From assembly GCA_021788955.1 (NCBI GenBank), contig JAJYKC010000074.1:1-8473 (forward strand): a DNA stretch of 8,473 nt. The letters run 5' to 3'. The translations under genes and the position numbers were made by a program. This document shows, piece after piece, positions 2,194 to 8,473 of this stretch. Within the stretch, counting starts at the first letter, position 1. Each line of letters begins with the position of its first letter. The DNA comes from Acidobacteriota bacterium. Lineage in GTDB: Bacteria > Acidobacteriota > Terriglobia > Bryobacterales > Bryobacteraceae. The notes beneath the pieces were generated by a model. It was not told the origin of the DNA and did no database searches. It saw only the letters and a list, made by a program, of their open reading frames with translations.

Positions 2194-4107
2194 CTAGCTC
2201 TGGTAGCTCGCCGCCAGCCGCTGGATCACGTCCTTGTGAATTTTGATCTTGCCTTCCTTTTCCAGCCGGCTCCGGATGGCGTCCTCGAACAGGTTCATCC
2301 GCTCCTGCTGCTTCCGGTTCTTGAGCTCCGCGATAATGCTGTCGCGCTGTGCGGCCAGCTTCGTCATGTCCGCCGGAACCTGCTCGACCACCTTGGCCAC
2401 TACCGCCTGGTTGCTCGCCGAAACCGGCCCGACAATCGCGCCAACCGGCTGCGTGAACGCCGCCGACAGCAGCGAGGCCGGACCCAGCCCTTCCACCGCC
2501 CCGATCATCGCGAACGGCTCGGGCGTCTTCACCTCCACTTTAAACTCCTTCGCCACAGCCTGAATGTCCTTGCCGTCGCGCAGCTCCTTGCCCGCCTTCG
2601 TCGCATCATCGGCCGCCAGCGCCAGCGCCTTCTGCGTCGTCAACTGCCGCCGGATCCCGCTCACCACGTCCCCGAAATCCGCCGGGTGCGGGGCAATCAC
2701 TGACGTGCACACCGCGAACGCCAGCTTGTCGTTCCCGATCGCCACCGGCTGGCTCACCCCGTTCACCTGCAGCCCCGCGATCGCGGAAGTGAGCTGCGGC
2801 GACACCATCCCCGGCACCGGATCCGTCGGACCCAGCTTCTGCGCCTGAATTACCGTCAGCCCGTACTTCGCCGCCACCTGCGCCGCTGTCTGCGGAGCCG
2901 CCACCAGCTCCGCCTGCGCGTTGTTCGCGATGTCCTGCATCTTCTGGTTCACCACCTGCTTCTTCAGCGCCGTCGCAATGTCGTTCTTTACCTCGCTGAA
3001 CGGCTTCACCTGCGCCTGCTGATGATCCATCACCTGTAAAATGTGATAGCCGTACTCGGTGGTCACGATCCCGCTCAACTGCTTCGTCTTCAGCGAAAAC
3101 GCAGCGTCCTCGAACGGCTTCACCGTCTGGCCCCGCACAACCCAGCCCAGCTCGCCGCCGTTAGCCGCCGAACCGGGATCCTGCGAATACTTCTTCGCCA
3201 GCTCGGCGAAGTCCGCCCCGCCCTGCAACTGCTTCAGCAGATCCTCGGCCTGCTGGTGAATCTTATCCGCCTCCGCCTTCGACTTCCCCGTCGTCGTCAG
3301 CAGAATGTGCCGCACGTCCACCCGCTCCGGCGTCCGGTACTGATCAATGTTCGCGTTGTAATAGGCCAGAAGCTGTGCGTCCGGCACCGTAATCGTCCCG
3401 CCCACCTTCGCCTGGTCCACCACCAGCACCGTCGCATTCCGCTGCGGCGGCGTCTGGTAGGCGGCCTTGTGCTGATCGTAATAAGCGTGCAATTCTTCAT
3501 CGCTCACCTTGATCTGGCTCCCGAGCGTCGCCTCGCTGAACAGCAGGTAGTCGATCTTCACCTTTGCGTTCTCGCGGTTGTACTCCTCCTCAATCTCCTT
3601 CGGCGTCACCACGATCGCTTCCATCGCCACCTGCCGCAGCCGCTGCGTCGCCATGCTTTCCCGCATCGACGCTTCAAACTCCGGCACCGTCATCCCCTGT
3701 TCCTCGACATACTGCTTGTACAGCGCCACGTCGTGAAATTGCGAGTTGATCACCACTTGCAACGTGTTGGCCAGCTCCGCGTCGCTCACCCGGTAACCCA
3801 GACGGTCCGCCTCGTACGCCATCGCCCGCTCCGTGATCATCTGGTCGATCGCCTGTGGCACGTACACATGCAGCAGCTCGTTCGGAATCTGCCGGTTCCG
3901 CCGCATCGCCTGGATCTGTACATCCACCTCGCGCAGCGTCAGGTCCTGCCCGCCGATCTCCGCCACCACCTGGTCGTACCCGCTGCTCGACCCGCCGCCG
4001 CCATAGTTCGGAATCAGGTACACCAACATCGAAAGCGCAACCAGGCCAAGCAGCACACCCAGCAGAATGCGGACAGCCTTGTCTCGGCTGCGGAACAAAT
4101 CGAACAT
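2194..4107 (-). CDS. ppiD: PpiD-type membrane-anchored peptidyl-prolyl isomerase / periplasmic chaperone
   Basis: This 637-residue protein is close in length to E. coli PpiD (about 620). PpiD is anchored in the inner membrane and assists folding of proteins leaving the Sec translocon. A short basic cytoplasmic start is followed by one transmembrane helix (about 13-33) and a Gly/Ser linker (36-43). A SurA_N-like chaperone region comes next (about 44-190). One parvulin domain (about 262-360) carries RHILL, GADFAELAKKYSQD, GGELGW, F-x-x-AAF and TEYGYHILQV. The C-terminal chaperone half (about 365-637) ends in charged helix. The ATG at 4107 is supported by a GAGGAG Shine-Dalgarno at 4117-4122, 9 nt upstream, and by a promoter further upstream. 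It forms an operon with the DedA gene. Whether the parvulin domain is catalytically active cannot be told; PpiD parvulin domains are often inactive. Confidence 0.93.
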   Translation of the reverse strand: MFDLFRSRDKAVRILLGVLLGLVALSMLVYLIPNYGGGGSSSGYDQVVAEIGGQDLTLREVDVQIQAMRRNRQIPNELLHVYVPQAIDQMITERAMAYEADRLGYRVSDAELANTLQVVINSQFHDVALYKQYVEEQGMTVPEFEASMRESMATQRLRQVAMEAIVVTPKEIEEEYNRENAKVKIDYLLFSEATLGSQIKVSDEELHAYYDQHKAAYQTPPQRNATVLVVDQAKVGGTITVPDAQLLAYYNANIDQYRTPERVDVRHILLTTTGKSKAEADKIHQQAEDLLKQLQGGADFAELAKKYSQDPGSAANGGELGWVVRGQTVKPFEDAAFSLKTKQLSGIVTTEYGYHILQVMDHQQAQVKPFSEVKNDIATALKKQVVNQKMQDIANNAQAELVAAPQTAAQVAAKYGLTVIQAQKLGPTDPVPGMVSPQLTSAIAGLQVNGVSQPVAIGNDKLAFAVCTSVIAPHPADFGDVVSGIRRQLTTQKALALAADDATKAGKELRDGKDIQAVAKEFKVEVKTPEPFAMIGAVEGLGPASLLSAAFTQPVGAIVGPVSASNQAVVAKVVEQVPADMTKLAAQRDSIIAELKNRKQQERMNLFEDAIRSRLEKEGKIKIHKDVIQRLAASYQS

Positions 4108-4166: not shown

Positions 4167-5048
4167 TTAACCCGGCGCTCCACTCAATAACCCCCGGCGA
4201 AACAAGTCCAGAACCAACTCCGGCGCCGGTAGCACGCCCGAAGTAGCCGACGTATCAATAATCTGGTTCACCAGATGCTCAAAGCTTGCCTCCGGCTCCA
4301 GAACCGGCCTCGCCATCCCGGACGACGACGCTGGACAAAGGCGGGCTACGTCCCGTCCTAACAACTCCCTCCCCGCCGAGGGCACGTCAAATGCAATCGA
4401 TTCGACTAAGCCCATCTCTTCGTCAACGAGCCGGTCCACATGGCCGGCGTCGGCATATGCCGCCAAAAGCGGGTACAGATCGGCGGCATCCTTGTTCGTC
4501 GCTGTTCCAGGATCAGCCCACGCGATCCGCTTGAGCAGCGCCAACCTCGGAATCGACGCCACACGCACCGCCAGCCCGTCTTCGATCTCAAGCGGAACGG
4601 AAGTCGACAACGCCTCCTCAAAACCGGCCACGTTCATCACGATATCGCGGCCCGGCGGCCACGCGATCGTACCCTCGGCGGATGTGACGCCCGGAAATCG
4701 AATCAGGTCCACCGGAACCGGGAATCCGCCGGCGTCGCCCCGGTACAGAAGCCGCTGCGGCGCGAACCGTTCAGGGACAATGTCGCCGGTGGCCGTCAAT
4801 CGCTGCTTCAACAAAGTGAACCCGTCCCAACTCGCTACCGCAACCCCAAAGTCGATATCCCGCGTCGCGCCTCAGGACCACAGGCCGTACACGTTCACCA
4901 ACAGAAGATCCCGCGCCGTGGCCCCAACCGCAAAGTACGCGCAATCTGCCTCCTGCGCGATCGGATCGAACCTCCGAAGCACGCGTGCACTCAAAGGATC
5001 GACCGGCTTAATCGGCCGCACGGAACACCGGCGCGATCCGTTGCTCAT
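4167..5048 (-). pseudogene. Nucleotidyltransferase (AbiEii/AbiGii-like family) interrupted by in-frame TGA
   Basis: A single frame of 293 codons runs from ATG at 5048 to the TAA at 4167, broken only by TGA at codon 59 (4872-4874). The ATG is preceded by AGGGA six nt upstream and by an in-frame stop, so it is the natural start. The N-terminal half reads FAVGATARDLLL (39-50), then the stop, then GATRDIDFGVAV (60-71). This matches the nucleotidyltransferase fold motif, a glycine helix followed by Dh[DE]h with D64 and D66. The rest (LLKQRL, VDLI at the third acidic strand, and a helical domain with KRIAWADPG and KDAADLYPLL) fits predicted nucleotidyltransferases of the AbiEii toxin class. No AbiEi-like antitoxin is visible. 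After the TGA the first possible start is a TTG at 4814, with no clear ribosome site and beyond the catalytic motif. A sequencing error cannot be excluded. Confidence 0.78.
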
Positions 5049-5145
5049 GCATCATCCCTGCTGTTTCTGGCCAACCGCTCTCCGGGCTTCACTGATACTC
5101 TGACGATGAAGAATCCGGAATTGTATATCCACTAAACATGCGCCC

Positions 5146-5161
5146 TTCCTGACTTCAGGAA
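5146..5161. repeat. Perfect 7-2-7 inverted repeat, operator-like
   Basis: TTCCTGA, a CT spacer and TCAGGAA form an exact 16-bp dyad. The two-base gap is too tight for a stable RNA hairpin of full length, so a site for a dimeric DNA-binding regulator is the likelier reading. It lies about 20 nt after the weak promoter candidate and about 100 nt from the start of the divergent pseudogene, so it could serve either direction. No regulator family is recognised from the half-site. Confidence 0.4.
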
Positions 5162-5260
5162 ATAATTCCACGGATCCCGGTACACTTTTCTCCCTGATTC
5201 TTCTGGCTTTGATAAGGTTCCTCCTTAGCACTGACCGAGAATGTTCGAGTTAAACGGAAA

Positions 5261-5290
5261 CAACCGGGTAAGAATCTGAACATCCGGTTG
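5261..5290 (+). repeat. Inverted repeat in the EPS leader
   Basis: CAACCGG (5261-5267) and CCGGTTG (5284-5290) are exact reverse complements around a 16-nt spacer. As RNA they would form a 7-bp stem with a wide loop. No T-run follows, so it does not look like an intrinsic terminator. It may be part of a folded leader or an operator. The function is unknown. Confidence 0.35.
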
Positions 5291-5441
5291 GAATGCGAAC
5301 TGCTGCGCTTCCCGTGTCATCTAATTTCCGCTTGGCCCGCAGCGAACATGTTTGGTCGTGAACGCGGGATTAGGGTGACTTCCGACCGAAGACCCGTCTC
5401 ACGTCGGCTACGACTGTCAAGTGACGTCGAAGTGGCAAAAG

Positions 5442-5454
5442 GGCGGTAGCCTGT
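5442..5454 (+). promoter_or_regulatory. ops/JUMPstart-like element (RfaH-type antiterminator loading site)
   Basis: The sequence GGCGGTAGCCTGT, preceded by a further G, matches the core of the enterobacterial JUMPstart/ops element as I recall it (GGGCGGTAGCGTG) at 12 of 13 positions. The GC-GGTA-GC mini-hairpin core is intact. So is the T-G step at element positions 11-12, with a G ten bases before it, which is the G-Y-G layout of the consensus RNA polymerase pause. In RfaH operons this element pauses polymerase and loads the NusG paralogue through the exposed non-template strand. Here it lies 65 nt before the start of a NusG-paralogue gene that heads a polysaccharide operon, the right strand and context. 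Against this, the 8-base core GGCGGTAG also occurs by chance in the ppiD coding sequence of this window. Confidence 0.5.
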
Positions 5455-5497
5455 CCCGACCTCGTGCACGGTTCAGCCTTGCAGCTCCCATGACTTT

Positions 5498-5516
5498 CTA
5501 AACAGCGGAGGTTTAG
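5498..5516 (+). promoter_or_regulatory. Start-site hairpin carrying the Shine-Dalgarno of the antiterminator gene
   Basis: CTAAAC (5498-5503) pairs exactly with GTTTAG (5511-5516) around the 7-nt loop AGCGGAG. The Shine-Dalgarno GGAGG (5507-5511) sits in the loop and its last base is in the stem. It ends 8 nt before the ATG at 5520, an ideal spacing. The A/T-rich stem would be weak, so the structure may tune rather than block ribosome access. A GGA in a hairpin loop over a ribosome site is also the layout recognised by CsrA/RsmA proteins. Confidence 0.45.
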
Positions 5517-5519
5517 TGT

Positions 5520-6053
5520 ATGCCCGCAAGCCCGGACTCCCCTTGGTATGCCATCCGCGTTAAATCCAATCGCGAATGGGTAACATCAGATGCTCTGAGG
5601 GGCCGTGATTATGAAGTTATTTTTCCTTCATATCACGAGCTCCGAACTGATGGTTGCGAAGCGCGGACAGTGGAACGTCCATTATTCCCCGGATATCTTT
5701 TTTGCCGGATGGACATCAACAACCGGCTCCCCGCGCTGATCATTCCCGGGGTATTACACATCGTCGGTATCGGCCGTAAGCCAGAGCCCATTGATCCTTC
5801 GGAAATGGCAGATGTGATGACCCTGCTCGAGTCCAAACTGAACATTACTCCCTTCGATTACCCGCCTGTTGGGGAGCGAGTGCGCATTTATAGGGGACCG
5901 TTGCGCGGGGTGGCCGGAACCGTACTCGCGCATAGGGGCTCGGAGAAGCTAGTGATATCGGTGAGCCTCCTTCAACGAGCTATCGCTGTCGACGTCGAAC
6001 GTGACTGGGTCACGTCAGCGACTACCTGTTCTGATTCCGCTTCCATCGCCTAG
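5520..6053 (+). CDS. NusG-paralogue transcription antiterminator (UpxY/RfaH/LoaP type)
   Basis: This 177-residue protein has the two-domain NusG layout. The NGN domain (about 8-106) starts with WYAIRVKSNREWVTSDAL and carries YEVIFPSY, the PLFPGYLFCRMD segment (54-65), and GVLHIVGIGRKPEPID. The KOW-type C-terminal domain (about 115-165) reads VGERVRIYRGPLRGVAGTV and ends SVSLLQRAIAVDVERDWV. Placement as the first gene of a capsule/EPS cluster, rather than beside secE and ribosomal genes, marks it as a specialised paralogue that binds RNA polymerase and promotes read-through of its own operon. The ATG at 5520 is fixed by GGAGG 8 nt upstream. The wzz-like gene follows after 12 nt. An ops-like site lies in its leader and a terminator-like hairpin just downstream. 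It is related to UpxY, RfaH and LoaP; which subgroup cannot be settled by eye. Confidence 0.93.
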   Translation: MPASPDSPWYAIRVKSNREWVTSDALRGRDYEVIFPSYHELRTDGCEARTVERPLFPGYLFCRMDINNRLPALIIPGVLHIVGIGRKPEPIDPSEMADVMTLLESKLNITPFDYPPVGERVRIYRGPLRGVAGTVLAHRGSEKLVISVSLLQRAIAVDVERDWVTSATTCSDSASIA

Positions 6054-6065
6054 AGAGAACCCGCA

Positions 6066-7592
6066 GTGTCCACTTCAAACTCCGCTTTGATAACCCGACC
6101 TTCCTCAGTGAGAGCCCCCGGAGGAGGGGCTCTCTTATTTCGCGATGTTCTGGAACGGTTGTTCCGCAAGAAAAAACAGCTTCTCATTTTGCTTGGCCTG
6201 TGGACGGGCGCGGTCGCCGCATATGTAGCCCTGGCCCCGCCGGTCTATCAGGAAGAGATTCAGTTCCTGATCAATAATAACCGCGCGCCCGAAGTCATCA
6301 GTCCGGAAATGAACAGCGGACCGGTTGCACGAGACTATGTCGACGACTCGGTTATCGCAACTGAACTTCAGTTACTGTCCAACGTCGATCTGCTTCGCGA
6401 CGTGGTGAAACAGTGTGGCTTGGCGAAGAGCACCGATCCCAGCGCGGAGGAAGAGGCCGTGCGGCATCTTCGGACACAGTTGAAGACCGCTCCCGTGCTA
6501 AAGGCCAACATGATCAAGGCAACGTATTCGTCTTCAGATCCAAAGCAAGTGGAAGCGGTACTCCGGACATTGTCCGACGACTATCTGAACGAGCACCTTC
6601 GTGCGCACGGCTCTGCTGGCACATATGAACTCTTCGCCAAGCAAGCGAACGAGTACGAACAAGAACTCAAGACCCTGCAGGACCAGTTGACGCAGTTTCA
6701 CGCCCAGCGCAATATCGTGGAGCTTGGGGAACAAAAAGACCTAAACCTTCGCAAACTCGTCGATCTCCAAGCGGCACTCAAGGATGCGGTGGCGAATCGG
6801 GCCGAGGACATACAGAAGATCGGTACGCTCAAGGCACAATTAGCGGGGCTTGGTTCACGTATTACGACTCAGGCACGGAAAGTTCCGAACCAGTACTCGG
6901 TGGAGCGGTTGAACACGATGCTTGTAGAACTGGAGAACAAACGCACGGAGTTGGCGGCAAAGTACCAGCCTACCGAGCGCGTCATTCGGGAACTGGATCA
7001 AGAGATCGCCAATACGAAAGCCGCGCTGCAGAACGCTGGCCGGATGGCATCCACCGAAGAAACCACCGACGTAAATCCGCTGCGTCAGTCGCTTGAGGCG
7101 GAATTGGCCAAGACTCAGGTCGCTGAAAAGGAAGAGCAGGTGCATATCGCCAACCTGGAGCGGGACATTGCAGGTTATCGAGGGTCCTTGTCCGGATTGG
7201 AAGATGCGACGGCGAGCGATGATCAACTCGTGCGGAGGATCAAGGAAGCAGAAGACAATTTCTTCCTGTATTCGAAGAAGCGCGAGGAGGCCCGGATCGA
7301 GGAGGCGATGAACCATCGGAAGATTGCAAACGTTAGCCTGGTTCAACCTGCCGCTGTGCCTGCGCTACCTCTGCCGGCGGTTTCACTGACCTTAATCGCA
7401 ACATATGTCCTGGGGTGCCTGCTAATCGTTTCGATGTCCATCGCGACCGGACTGGCGTCGAAGAAGATCTCCACCGCGTGGGAGCTAGAGGTACTCACCG
7501 GGATGCCCGTGCTAGCAGAAGTTCCCGTGGAAGCCGTGCTGCCGGCCGCCGCCGGTGTGATGCCTGTAGTCGATCCGGAGCTAAACATATGA
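6066..7592 (+). CDS. Wzz/GumC-type polysaccharide chain-length / co-polymerase protein
   Basis: This 508-residue inner-membrane protein of the polysaccharide co-polymerase family sets chain length and links the Wzy polymerase to the export channel. After a flexible Gly-rich N-terminus come FRDVLERLFRKKKQ and a first transmembrane helix (about 37-58). The Wzz domain (about 59-180) includes YQEEIQFLI. Long periplasmic coiled coils follow (about 186-325 and 337-418). A GNVR-like region with NFFLYSKKREEARIEEAM (398-415) and a Pro-rich VPALPLPA precede the second transmembrane helix (about 438-460). The cytoplasmic tail ELEVLTGMPVLAEVP is typical of proteins that work with a BY-kinase partner, which here is the next, overlapping gene. 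The GTG at 6066 has AGAGAG nearby; an alternative in-frame GTG is at 6108. A terminator-like hairpin lies within codons 15-25. Confidence 0.93.
   Translation: MSTSNSALITRPSSVRAPGGGALLFRDVLERLFRKKKQLLILLGLWTGAVAAYVALAPPVYQEEIQFLINNNRAPEVISPEMNSGPVARDYVDDSVIATELQLLSNVDLLRDVVKQCGLAKSTDPSAEEEAVRHLRTQLKTAPVLKANMIKATYSSSDPKQVEAVLRTLSDDYLNEHLRAHGSAGTYELFAKQANEYEQELKTLQDQLTQFHAQRNIVELGEQKDLNLRKLVDLQAALKDAVANRAEDIQKIGTLKAQLAGLGSRITTQARKVPNQYSVERLNTMLVELENKRTELAAKYQPTERVIRELDQEIANTKAALQNAGRMASTEETTDVNPLRQSLEAELAKTQVAEKEEQVHIANLERDIAGYRGSLSGLEDATASDDQLVRRIKEAEDNFFLYSKKREEARIEEAMNHRKIANVSLVQPAAVPALPLPAVSLTLIATYVLGCLLIVSMSIATGLASKKISTAWELEVLTGMPVLAEVPVEAVLPAAAGVMPVVDPELNI
6110..6140 (+). terminator. Terminator-like hairpin inside the 5' end of the wzz-like gene
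   Basis: GAGAGCCCC (6110-6118) pairs perfectly with GGGGCTCTC (6126-6134) around the 7-nt loop CGGAGGA. TTATTT follows at 6135-6140. This 9-bp GC-rich stem with a short U-rich tail has the form of an intrinsic terminator, although the tail is only six bases with one A. It lies in the coding frame (an APGGGALL stretch), so it can only act if translation lags. It sits 57 nt past the stop of the antiterminator gene, where an antiterminator-controlled stop would be expected. The loop also contains a Shine-Dalgarno-like GGAGGA, but the ATG after it (6145) is out of frame. Confidence 0.5.
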
Positions 7593-8245
7593 CCATCCGC
7601 ACAGCCAAACTGCTTGAGTCGCTCGACCAACCACAGCGCCGGGTGGCAACGTTGATTCCCGCGTTGCCCGCACCGTGCGCGAATTCTACCAGTTACACGT
7701 ACCTTCCACTCGTGCACCGCCTTGTCCAACTGCGCCAGGAACAGAATCACGGTATGATCACAGCGTTCACGTCCGTCAACTCAGGTGAGGGAGTAACGCA
7801 TGTGGTTGAATCCCTCGCTTGGGAGTTGGCAAGACACAGCGGCGAGCAGATCCTGCTTACCACGGGCTACGCTTTGACCTGCCCGCCCGTCCATCCCCTC
7901 TGGAACCAGGATCACGCGATTTCACACAGGGTTCACAGACTTGTCGAGGGGCACGCCAGTGAACAGAGGCCGCTACAAAGCCTTCGCTGGCAGGACCTGC
8001 GCGGTGTGCGGGAGCGGTTCGGCTTCGTATTGGTAGACTGTCCAGCGATACAAAAGTCGTCTGCCATTCTGACTCTCGGCCGGTCGGTAGACGGCGTGGT
8101 ACTCGTCGTAGCGGCCGATGAAACCGAACGCGACGACGTGCGGCGTGCCCAACAGGCCTTGGCCGCTTCATCCGCGAAATTACTCGGCTTAGTCCTGAAC
8201 AAGCGGAGAAATCCCATACCGAGCCCGATCTCCCGGCTGGTGTAG
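7589..8245 (+). CDS. BY-kinase/CpsD-like P-loop ATPase with degenerate Walker A
   Basis: This 218-residue cytoplasmic protein is of the bacterial tyrosine-kinase (CpsD/CapB, MinD-like) family, the usual partner of Wzz proteins in polysaccharide assembly. The fold is recognisable: YLPLVHRLVQLRQ before MITAFTSVNSGEGVTHVVESLAWELA (56-81), the Walker B strand FGFVLVDCPA (144-153), then VDGVVLVVAADETERDDV and LLGLVLNKRRNPIP. The Walker A signature is GEGVTHV in place of GEGKTTV, so the phosphate-binding lysine is missing. The A' strand ILLTTGY lacks the usual LLID-D aspartates. No C-terminal tyrosine cluster is present. It is probably a pseudo-kinase or a structural partner. The ATG at 7589 overlaps the wzz stop by four bases (ATGA) and has GGAG at 7577-7580, which points to translational coupling; a longer in-frame extension to 7415 would lie wholly over wzz coding and is rejected. 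Confidence 0.85.
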   Translation: MTIRTAKLLESLDQPQRRVATLIPALPAPCANSTSYTYLPLVHRLVQLRQEQNHGMITAFTSVNSGEGVTHVVESLAWELARHSGEQILLTTGYALTCPPVHPLWNQDHAISHRVHRLVEGHASEQRPLQSLRWQDLRGVRERFGFVLVDCPAIQKSSAILTLGRSVDGVVLVVAADETERDDVRRAQQALAASSAKLLGLVLNKRRNPIPSPISRLV

Positions 8246-8256
8246 GTGTGAACGTC

Positions 8257-8473
8257 ATGTTAATCCTACGTTTGACGATTGCCGCACTCCTGTGCTTAAC
8301 ACTTCAGGCTGGCGATCAACCACAAGCCCCACCGGCAGGCTTCTCAACGCGAAATGCCCGGTACAAGCTGCAGTCGGACGATGTTGTGGAGGTTCGCTTC
8401 CGTTACACGCCTGAGTTCAATGCGGTGGCGACGGTTCAGCCCGACGGATTTATCAGTCTGCAGGCGAGATCGG
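8257..8473 (+). CDS. Wza-type polysaccharide export protein, 5' part only
   Basis: The first 72 codons of an outer-membrane polysaccharide export protein (PES/SLBB family) are present and run off the right edge. A Sec-type signal peptide is evident: MLILRL, a hydrophobic core to about residue 17, and likely cleavage near LQAG. A cysteine at residue 13 does not sit in a good lipobox. The mature part begins the export domain with YKLQSDDVVEVRF, then YTPEFNAVATVQPDGFISLQ, close to the family pattern of Y-x-L-x-x-x-D followed by PEFN and V-x-PDG-x-I-x-L. The start chosen is the ATG at 8257, with AGG ten bases upstream; an in-frame GTG at 8248 is the alternative. It lies 11 nt after the kinase-like gene, in the same operon, and would form the secretion channel for the polymer. 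Confidence 0.88.
   Translation, partial: MLILRLTIAALLCLTLQAGDQPQAPPAGFSTRNARYKLQSDDVVEVRFRYTPEFNAVATVQPDGFISLQARS

Follow-up and report, generated by a model that had tools for sequence, protein, structure and literature searches.

The stretch of DNA studied here, called the window throughout, comprises 8,473 nucleotides of a contig from an Acidobacteriota bacterium of the family Bryobacteraceae. Its forward strand carries the start of an exopolysaccharide (EPS) operon headed by a paralogue of NusG, and the leader of this operon contains an ops-like element, GGCGGTAGCCTG, at positions 5442–5453. The paralogue gene (5520–6053) encodes a UpxY-like protein of 177 amino acids with NGN and KOW domains, which is the proposed reader of the element. 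Behind it lie a polysaccharide chain-length determinant of the Wzz/PCP type (6066–7592), a tyrosine-kinase-like protein of the EPS system, with matches under the curated cut-offs (7589–8245), and the start of a Poly_export-type gene (8257–8473), which is truncated by the window end and scores 24.4 bits against a gathering score of 28. With these genes behind it, the paralogue heads an EPS operon, as an earlier note on this DNA had stated. That note had also suggested that RfaH-like loading takes place outside enterobacteria, at an element lying in the leader of the very paralogue that would use it; on the evidence of sequence comparison, this proposal is well supported.

The ops consensus is GGCGGTAGNNTG, and the element matches it without a mismatch. 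From 5441 the forward strand reads GGGCGGTAGCCTGTCCC, and the 13-mer GGGCGGTAGCCTG at 5441–5453 is one base off the ops of wza and rfb in Escherichia coli MG1655, GGGCGGTAGCGTG, which agrees with the 12 of 13 matching bases reported earlier. The element stands on the sense strand, with 66 nt between its end at 5453 and the ATG at 5520; the distance of 65 nt given in the note holds when counted from 5454. By sequence, 5442–5453 would therefore be classed as an ops element, i.e., as GGCGGTAGNNTG on the sense strand of the leader of a long operon. The core is adjoined upstream by AAAAG (5437–5441), which like the core is kept in relatives, and downstream by TCCC (5454–5457), which appears as YCC in relatives; a Shine-Dalgarno-like GGAGG (5507–5511) is located 8 nt ahead of the ATG. 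We take 5452–5453 to be the T/G step of a consensus pause and G5442 and G5443 to be its upstream G pair. In all of 19 sites from relatives, this step consists of a pyrimidine followed by a purine. The bases 5443–5450 are predicted, from the sequence, the RfaH:ops structure and the loop statistics of relatives, to form a mini-hairpin GC-GGTA-GC in the non-template DNA strand. In that structure (PMC5995543), the loop spans G4–A7, the C3:G8 pair matters, and a base-specific hydrogen-bond network originates from G5 and T6 only; the corresponding positions in the window are 5444:5449 for the pair and 5446–5447 for the bases that RfaH reads.

The window by itself cannot decide whether this element is meaningful. 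The segment at 5442–5453 is its sole match to GGCGGTAGNNTG on both strands with at most one mismatch, and the 9-mer GGCGGTAGC is single-copy, but 0.76 matches are expected by chance, so that the window alone is not significant. A second copy of GGCGGTAG lies at 2400 on the minus strand, within a ppiD-like open reading frame (ORF; 2194–4107), as had been noted. The caution that the match might be due to chance thus stands for the window taken alone; it does not stand for the relatives, where conservation is far above chance.

Our survey covered Acidobacteriota loci and genomes, plus viral contigs. An alignment of 43 homologous proteins was used to fetch 48 loci, all with Acidobacteriota titles, and in 44 of them the gene is complete enough for its start to be located (L003, among these, has almost no leader). 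In these 44 loci (428 kb), GGCGGTAGC occurs 26 times in forward and 3 times in reverse orientation, and 19 of the 26 forward copies fall within the 300-nt leaders, which total 12.8 kb. The 8-mer GGCGGTAG is found at most 300 nt upstream in 19 of the 44 leaders, compared with 0.31 expected, and GGCGGTAGNNTG occurs 17 times forward, 12 of them in leaders, and never in reverse. Across 17 genomes, 14 of 79 GGCGGTAGCNTG sites stand 47–161 nt ahead of the matched domain of a paralogue, for which arithmetic from the genome sizes gives a chance expectation of about 0.01. These paralogues are among 45 matches of at least 60 bits; 16 weaker NusG matches, taken as housekeeping NusG plus one fragment, were kept apart, and none of them is preceded by a GGCGGTAGCNTG site. 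In the nearest genome, which holds a locus (L001) whose protein is 97% identical to that of the window, there are two GGCGGTAGCNTG sites, both heading paralogue genes.

The wider set of 223 loci yielded, after removal of duplicates and one short leader, 204 distinct genes with a leader of at least 150 nt; a nominal position was used for four loci without a recognisable conserved Trp codon. Exact GGCGGTAGC is present within 300 nt in 40 of the 204 leaders, and an ops-like element, by the final rule, in 95 (71 class I, 14 class II and 10 triloop), each leader being counted once even where, in a few, there are two candidates. Training of the weight matrix used 19 leaders from among these 95, and for the remainder the box rule demands a G..A or GAA loop. 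The box-anchored form occurs in 70 leaders in sense and in none in antisense orientation. The comparison of orthologous leaders that the earlier note had suggested therefore came out in favour of the motif. The element is frequent both in the genome-contig set (25 of 42 genes) and in an order-level draw, where 67 of 133 genes have it. Acidobacteriaceae bacterium KBS 96 (genome G015) carries an ops in front of a paralogue at C1:5299216 (locus L198). Usable leaders were available for 78 of 80 loci from viral contigs, and two of these, L051 and L068, carry convincing variants. A single class I pattern match in viral contigs was taken as chance; the ORFs around it look phage-like by eye and were not domain-searched. 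In six loci (L320 and L323–L327), triloop GC-GAA-GC elements with shared following letters are positioned about 18 nt before the paralogue match, as if at the very start of the gene. Two single genomes of the order, G214 and G204, have 8 and 7 matches of NusG type, an expansion of paralogues that resembles the situation in Bacteroides.

The consensus from 58 sites in the first 148 leaders is tGGGACtgAAAgGGCGGTAGCtTGcCC, a conserved unit that spans some 27 nt and includes a variable loop; over −110 to +70, a weak A at −23 is the only further conservation at these sites. The unit includes a TGGGAC box, which is absent at the corresponding place from wza and rfb of E. coli, where the core is present. 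A loop-free search for TGGGAC (at most one mismatch), 7 nt, GC, 3–5 nt and GC matched 59 leaders, compared with 8.7 hits expected. Among box-anchored four-base loops, a statistic not affected by the circularity of the matrix, the form G..A is found in 54 of 57 leader loops and in 7 of 51 elsewhere in the loci. The four-base G..A loops are GGTA (31), GGCA (8), GCGA (4), GTGA (4), GATA (3), GGGA (2), GTAA (1) and GAGA (1). The triloop form GC-GAA-GC has an 8-nt spacer in most cases, and hence its distance from box to T/G is unchanged; GCGAAGC is a DNA mini-hairpin that has been called extraordinarily stable. The T/G step follows the hairpin at a near-fixed distance, one base later in class II, where TNTG comes after the stem. 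This class II pattern occurs 29 times in 150 genomes and never when read backwards. Energy tables for mini-hairpins are uninformative, as they give the same value for the ten four-base G..A loops that we tried and no bonus for GAA. Because the base-specific bonds of RfaH are limited to G5 and T6, these variants keep the GC-G..A-GC frame and change the bases that would be read.

Loop identity is associated with the protein surface. We compared 94 element-bearing genes (L240 was dropped) at 11 positions that contact DNA in RfaH, at equal similarity elsewhere in the NGN domain. Pairs with the same loop are more alike at these positions, with a gap of 0.123 compared with −0.010 (standard deviation 0.024) for entropy-matched columns, and none of 1000 matched column sets reaches this gap. 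The gap was likewise exceeded or equalled by none of 60 random sets when 15 positions were used, and by 2 of 1000 matched sets for class I alone; among 47 disjoint nearest pairs (25 with the same and 22 with a different loop) the Mann-Whitney p is 0.002, though all these probabilities are rough because the pairs are related. The six strongest single columns are L70, P71, R69, R29, D65 and L73, which correspond to T67, T68, T66, Q24, D60 and N70 of RfaH; T68, Q24 and N70 belong to the contact positions, two others adjoin them, and D60 is neither. Loops change 34 times on the tree, compared with a shuffled mean of 44 (minimum 41), and are therefore partly inherited. An enforced difference between paralogues of the same genome was not seen: 9 of 26 such pairs share their loop, compared with 0.296 of 4424 between-genome pairs. 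That sharing within genomes is about as common as between them counts against a strict one-to-one addressing. We give roughly even odds to the broader idea that Acidobacteriota possess a family of non-template-strand DNA mini-hairpins serving as loading addresses for NusG paralogues. The constant frame would usually consist of the TGGGAC box, a two-base-pair stem, the closing G..A and the pause T/G, while the address would reside in the middle two bases of the loop or in its length, with the facing paralogue surface co-evolving. If this is true, a readable DNA-hairpin code would decide which antiterminator boards which polysaccharide operon.

The element is not confined to the leaders of paralogue genes. 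Pattern matches in 150 genomes gave 59 loci (30 class I/III and 29 class II), and in 32 of them a paralogue match starts within 600 nt. Of the 27 distal loci, 15 were chosen first by eye and the remainder scanned later; L314 and L319 gave no usable ORF. A polysaccharide gene is next behind the element in 9 of the 27, namely Poly_export in five, a sugar transferase in two and Wzz in two; in L317 and L342 it is reached after one small ORF. In three further distal loci the paralogue comes second, an identification made from the appearance of its translation rather than by search; the elements of two others stand before an acyltransferase and a PAP2 gene, the latter with a Wzi match below the cut-off. 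By eye, the small ORFs that precede Poly_export in L317 and L342 resemble each other, and the Poly_export gene of L318 has a NikA-like domain at its N-terminus. We also picked 14 class I sites by eye from the 46 matches without a locus (30 of 76 had one). One proved to be a paralogue leader already in the set; behind each of the other 13, the longest of the ORFs that start no more than 900 nt away is of polysaccharide type (five Wzy_C, four Poly_export, two of the Wzz/kinase type, one flippase and one sugar transferase). In seven of these genomes, the paralogue leader that was fetched lacks the element (the score in G173 is just under the threshold), a comparison that does not cover every paralogue. 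An element at a polysaccharide operon combined with an element-less paralogue leader is, by analogy, an RfaH-like arrangement. Given that polysaccharide operons with no paralogue beside them carry this element too, action in trans is probable as well. The earlier suggestion that the antiterminator controls its own leader rather than acting from a distance is thus upheld as regards the place of the element in the window, and not as regards the exclusion of distant targets in relatives.

The protein of the window scores nearer to UpxY than to RfaH, which refines the earlier note. UpxY (NF033644) is its best-scoring NCBIfam family, at 77.5 bits with a curated cut-off of 100; the scores for RfaH (TIGR01955; 65.6 bits, cut-off 144.5) and LoaP (NF033641; 54.5 bits, cut-off 125) also lie below threshold. 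The other two paralogues of the nearest genome pass the UpxY cut-off, with 102.6 and 118.2 bits. In the structural work (PMC5995543), the side chains of RfaH in direct contact with ops are K10, H20, R23 and R73, of which K10 is kept as K15 in the window protein. The position equivalent to R73 is proline in 42 of 48 class I GGTA proteins. In a fold comparison, the NGN model of the window protein matches RfaH at ops. AlphaFold2 predicts strands for its KOW region, a result that is also compatible with another state, such as the autoinhibited, alpha-helical and refolding KOW of RfaH.

Taken together, we consider it very likely that the window motif is an ops-type recruitment element, at which an UpxY-like paralogue would be loaded in the RfaH-like, pause-coupled manner. 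What is established here is the element with its strand, place and conservation, the genes that follow, and the fact that element and DNA-facing paralogue residues are statistically associated; pausing, hairpin formation, binding, loading and antitermination are proposed by analogy with RfaH. RNA polymerase starting at the leader promoter would pause at T5452/G5453, and the exposed non-template strand would fold into the GC-GGTA-GC mini-hairpin. Its loop would then serve as the docking site for an NGN domain, either that of the UpxY-like protein whose gene follows or that of another paralogue of the genome, and the protein would be loaded onto the paused polymerase, displacing NusG. It would ride through the long exopolysaccharide operon while termination is suppressed. 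As the element is ahead of the paralogue's own gene, the factor would also raise the expression of its own operon. Our best reading is that loading may occur both in cis and in trans, by a protein without H20, R23 and R73 of RfaH.

Several observations weigh against this interpretation. The residues H20, R23 and R73 are replaced by A25, G28 and P76, and NusG chains come close behind RfaH in the fold comparison. The window copy has no TGGGAC box, which many relatives have six bases upstream of the core and in place of which it has AAGTGG, and no sigma-70-like promoter was recognised on the forward strand of 5000–6150. No element is present in 109 of the 204 leaders, nor in 26 of 29 in a phylum-wide draw (3 of 29 have one); further upstream of the 109, matches were found in 4 loci in sense and 4 in antisense orientation, one of the sense matches (GGGCGGTAGCATGCCC at −516 in L029) looking real. 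The background is large, as the class I/III pattern matches 76 times in 150 genomes and 41 times when read backwards. Of the 79 GGCGGTAGCNTG sites in the 17 genomes, 65 are not before a paralogue, and 13 of the 27 distal loci show no polysaccharide gene; in 10 of these 13 the element lies within an ORF on its own strand.

The strongest alternative, to which we assign a low probability, is that the conserved unit functions at the RNA level, with the paralogue binding the nascent GC-GNNA-GC hairpin once this has left the polymerase. There is precedent in LoaP, also a NusG paralogue, which binds an RNA hairpin (PMC12691694). The loops GCGA, GTGA, GAGA, GTAA, GAAA, GGAA and GGGA double as GNRA loops of RNA, and the JUMPstart family of Rfam models a region that includes ops as RNA. 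However, the commonest loops, GGTA and GGCA, as well as GATA and the GAA triloop, are not GNRA, and the T/G step keeps its near-fixed place behind the hairpin. In addition, DNA-contact positions of RfaH are among the residues most associated with the loop, no covarying RNA stem across the element was read in 71 class I sites, and an Rfam search of the window leader and 8 relatives gave no match. It is markedly less probable still that only a consensus pause is conserved, which would slow the polymerase for translation or processing while the paralogue does not read the sequence. The outer letters are those of a consensus pause, and diverse polymerases pause at ops-like sequences, as stated by Wang 2020 (PMC7593976). 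The structured variation of the loop, its association with paralogue residues, and the position of the element before paralogue genes and polysaccharide operons and before none of the 16 low-scoring NusG matches speak against such a pause alone. To our knowledge, the TGGGAC box is not part of the consensus pause either. Finally, a chance look-alike of ops at this one locus, whatever holds in relatives, can practically be dismissed: the window match is not significant alone and lacks the box, but the same box-less form AAAGGGCGGTAGC recurs in L002, L010 and L015, and the nearest genome has each of its two GGCGGTAGCNTG sites in front of a paralogue gene.

Two other features of the window are of note. 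At 6110–6134, in the first Wzz codons right after the paralogue gene, there is a terminator-like GC-rich hairpin of 9 pairs followed by TTATTT, which is found in L001 and is not general among relatives. A terminator just past the paralogue gene, as target of antitermination, was rejected: such terminators occur in 3 of 95 loci, compared with 6 of 95 in each of two controls, the reverse strand and one shuffle, and are therefore not a general target. Upstream of the leader, a nucleotidyltransferase-looking frame on the minus strand (4170–5048) has one in-frame stop; its longer part has no Pfam match, and it may be a pseudogene.

We found no published account of an acidobacterial ops/paralogue system in a literature search conducted mostly outside subscription papers. 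LoaP resembles the present system in being a NusG paralogue that depends on a small leader hairpin, and differs in that this hairpin, of the UNCG type, is bound as RNA and in the low LoaP score of the window protein. The JUMPstart RNA (RF01707) has the same ops core at its end; its covariance model, which matched E. coli rfb at 60 bits as a positive control, gave no match in the window leader (E≤5) or in 8 relatives (E≤1). In a 2024 study of Bacteroides, UpxY is reported to recognise, at a pause site, the non-template DNA together with the upstream duplex. The window protein shares with UpxY the best family score and the first position in a polysaccharide operon, with Wzz, kinase-like and Poly_export genes downstream. 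It differs in its score under the 100-bit cut-off and in the second gene: Wzz is next, so that UpxZ is not in second position as it is in UpxY operons. Further differences are the canonical ops in the window leader (the leaders compared being acidobacterial) and the targets in relatives without an adjacent paralogue. In PMC7819879, UpxY is described as blocking termination in the leader of its own gene, and RfaH-controlled genes are said to be without a Shine-Dalgarno sequence, unlike the window gene with its GGAGG. Wang 2020 (PMC7593976) states that some paralogues are encoded inside their target operons, with an unknown mode of recruitment, and that RfaH is mostly limited to Proteobacteria. 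Common to RfaH/ops and the system described here are the core GGCGGTAGCNTG, including the C3:G8 pair, G5, T6 and the T/G step, and the location in polysaccharide-operon leaders, in relatives also without an adjacent paralogue. In contrast, the window protein is outside the RfaH family by score and retains just K10 of the four contacts, relatives have a TGGGAC box upstream, at −12, in place of the JUMPstart stem, and the acidobacterial loop varies between paralogues, which are often encoded in the target operon. A canonical ops thus precedes paralogue genes and many polysaccharide operons in a phylum other than Proteobacteria. Together with a protein that lacks three of the four RfaH contacts, this suggests that the element or its reading arose repeatedly or is older than thought, and the naturally occurring loop variants with their partner surfaces offer a direct way of testing whether a DNA hairpin is read sequence-specifically.
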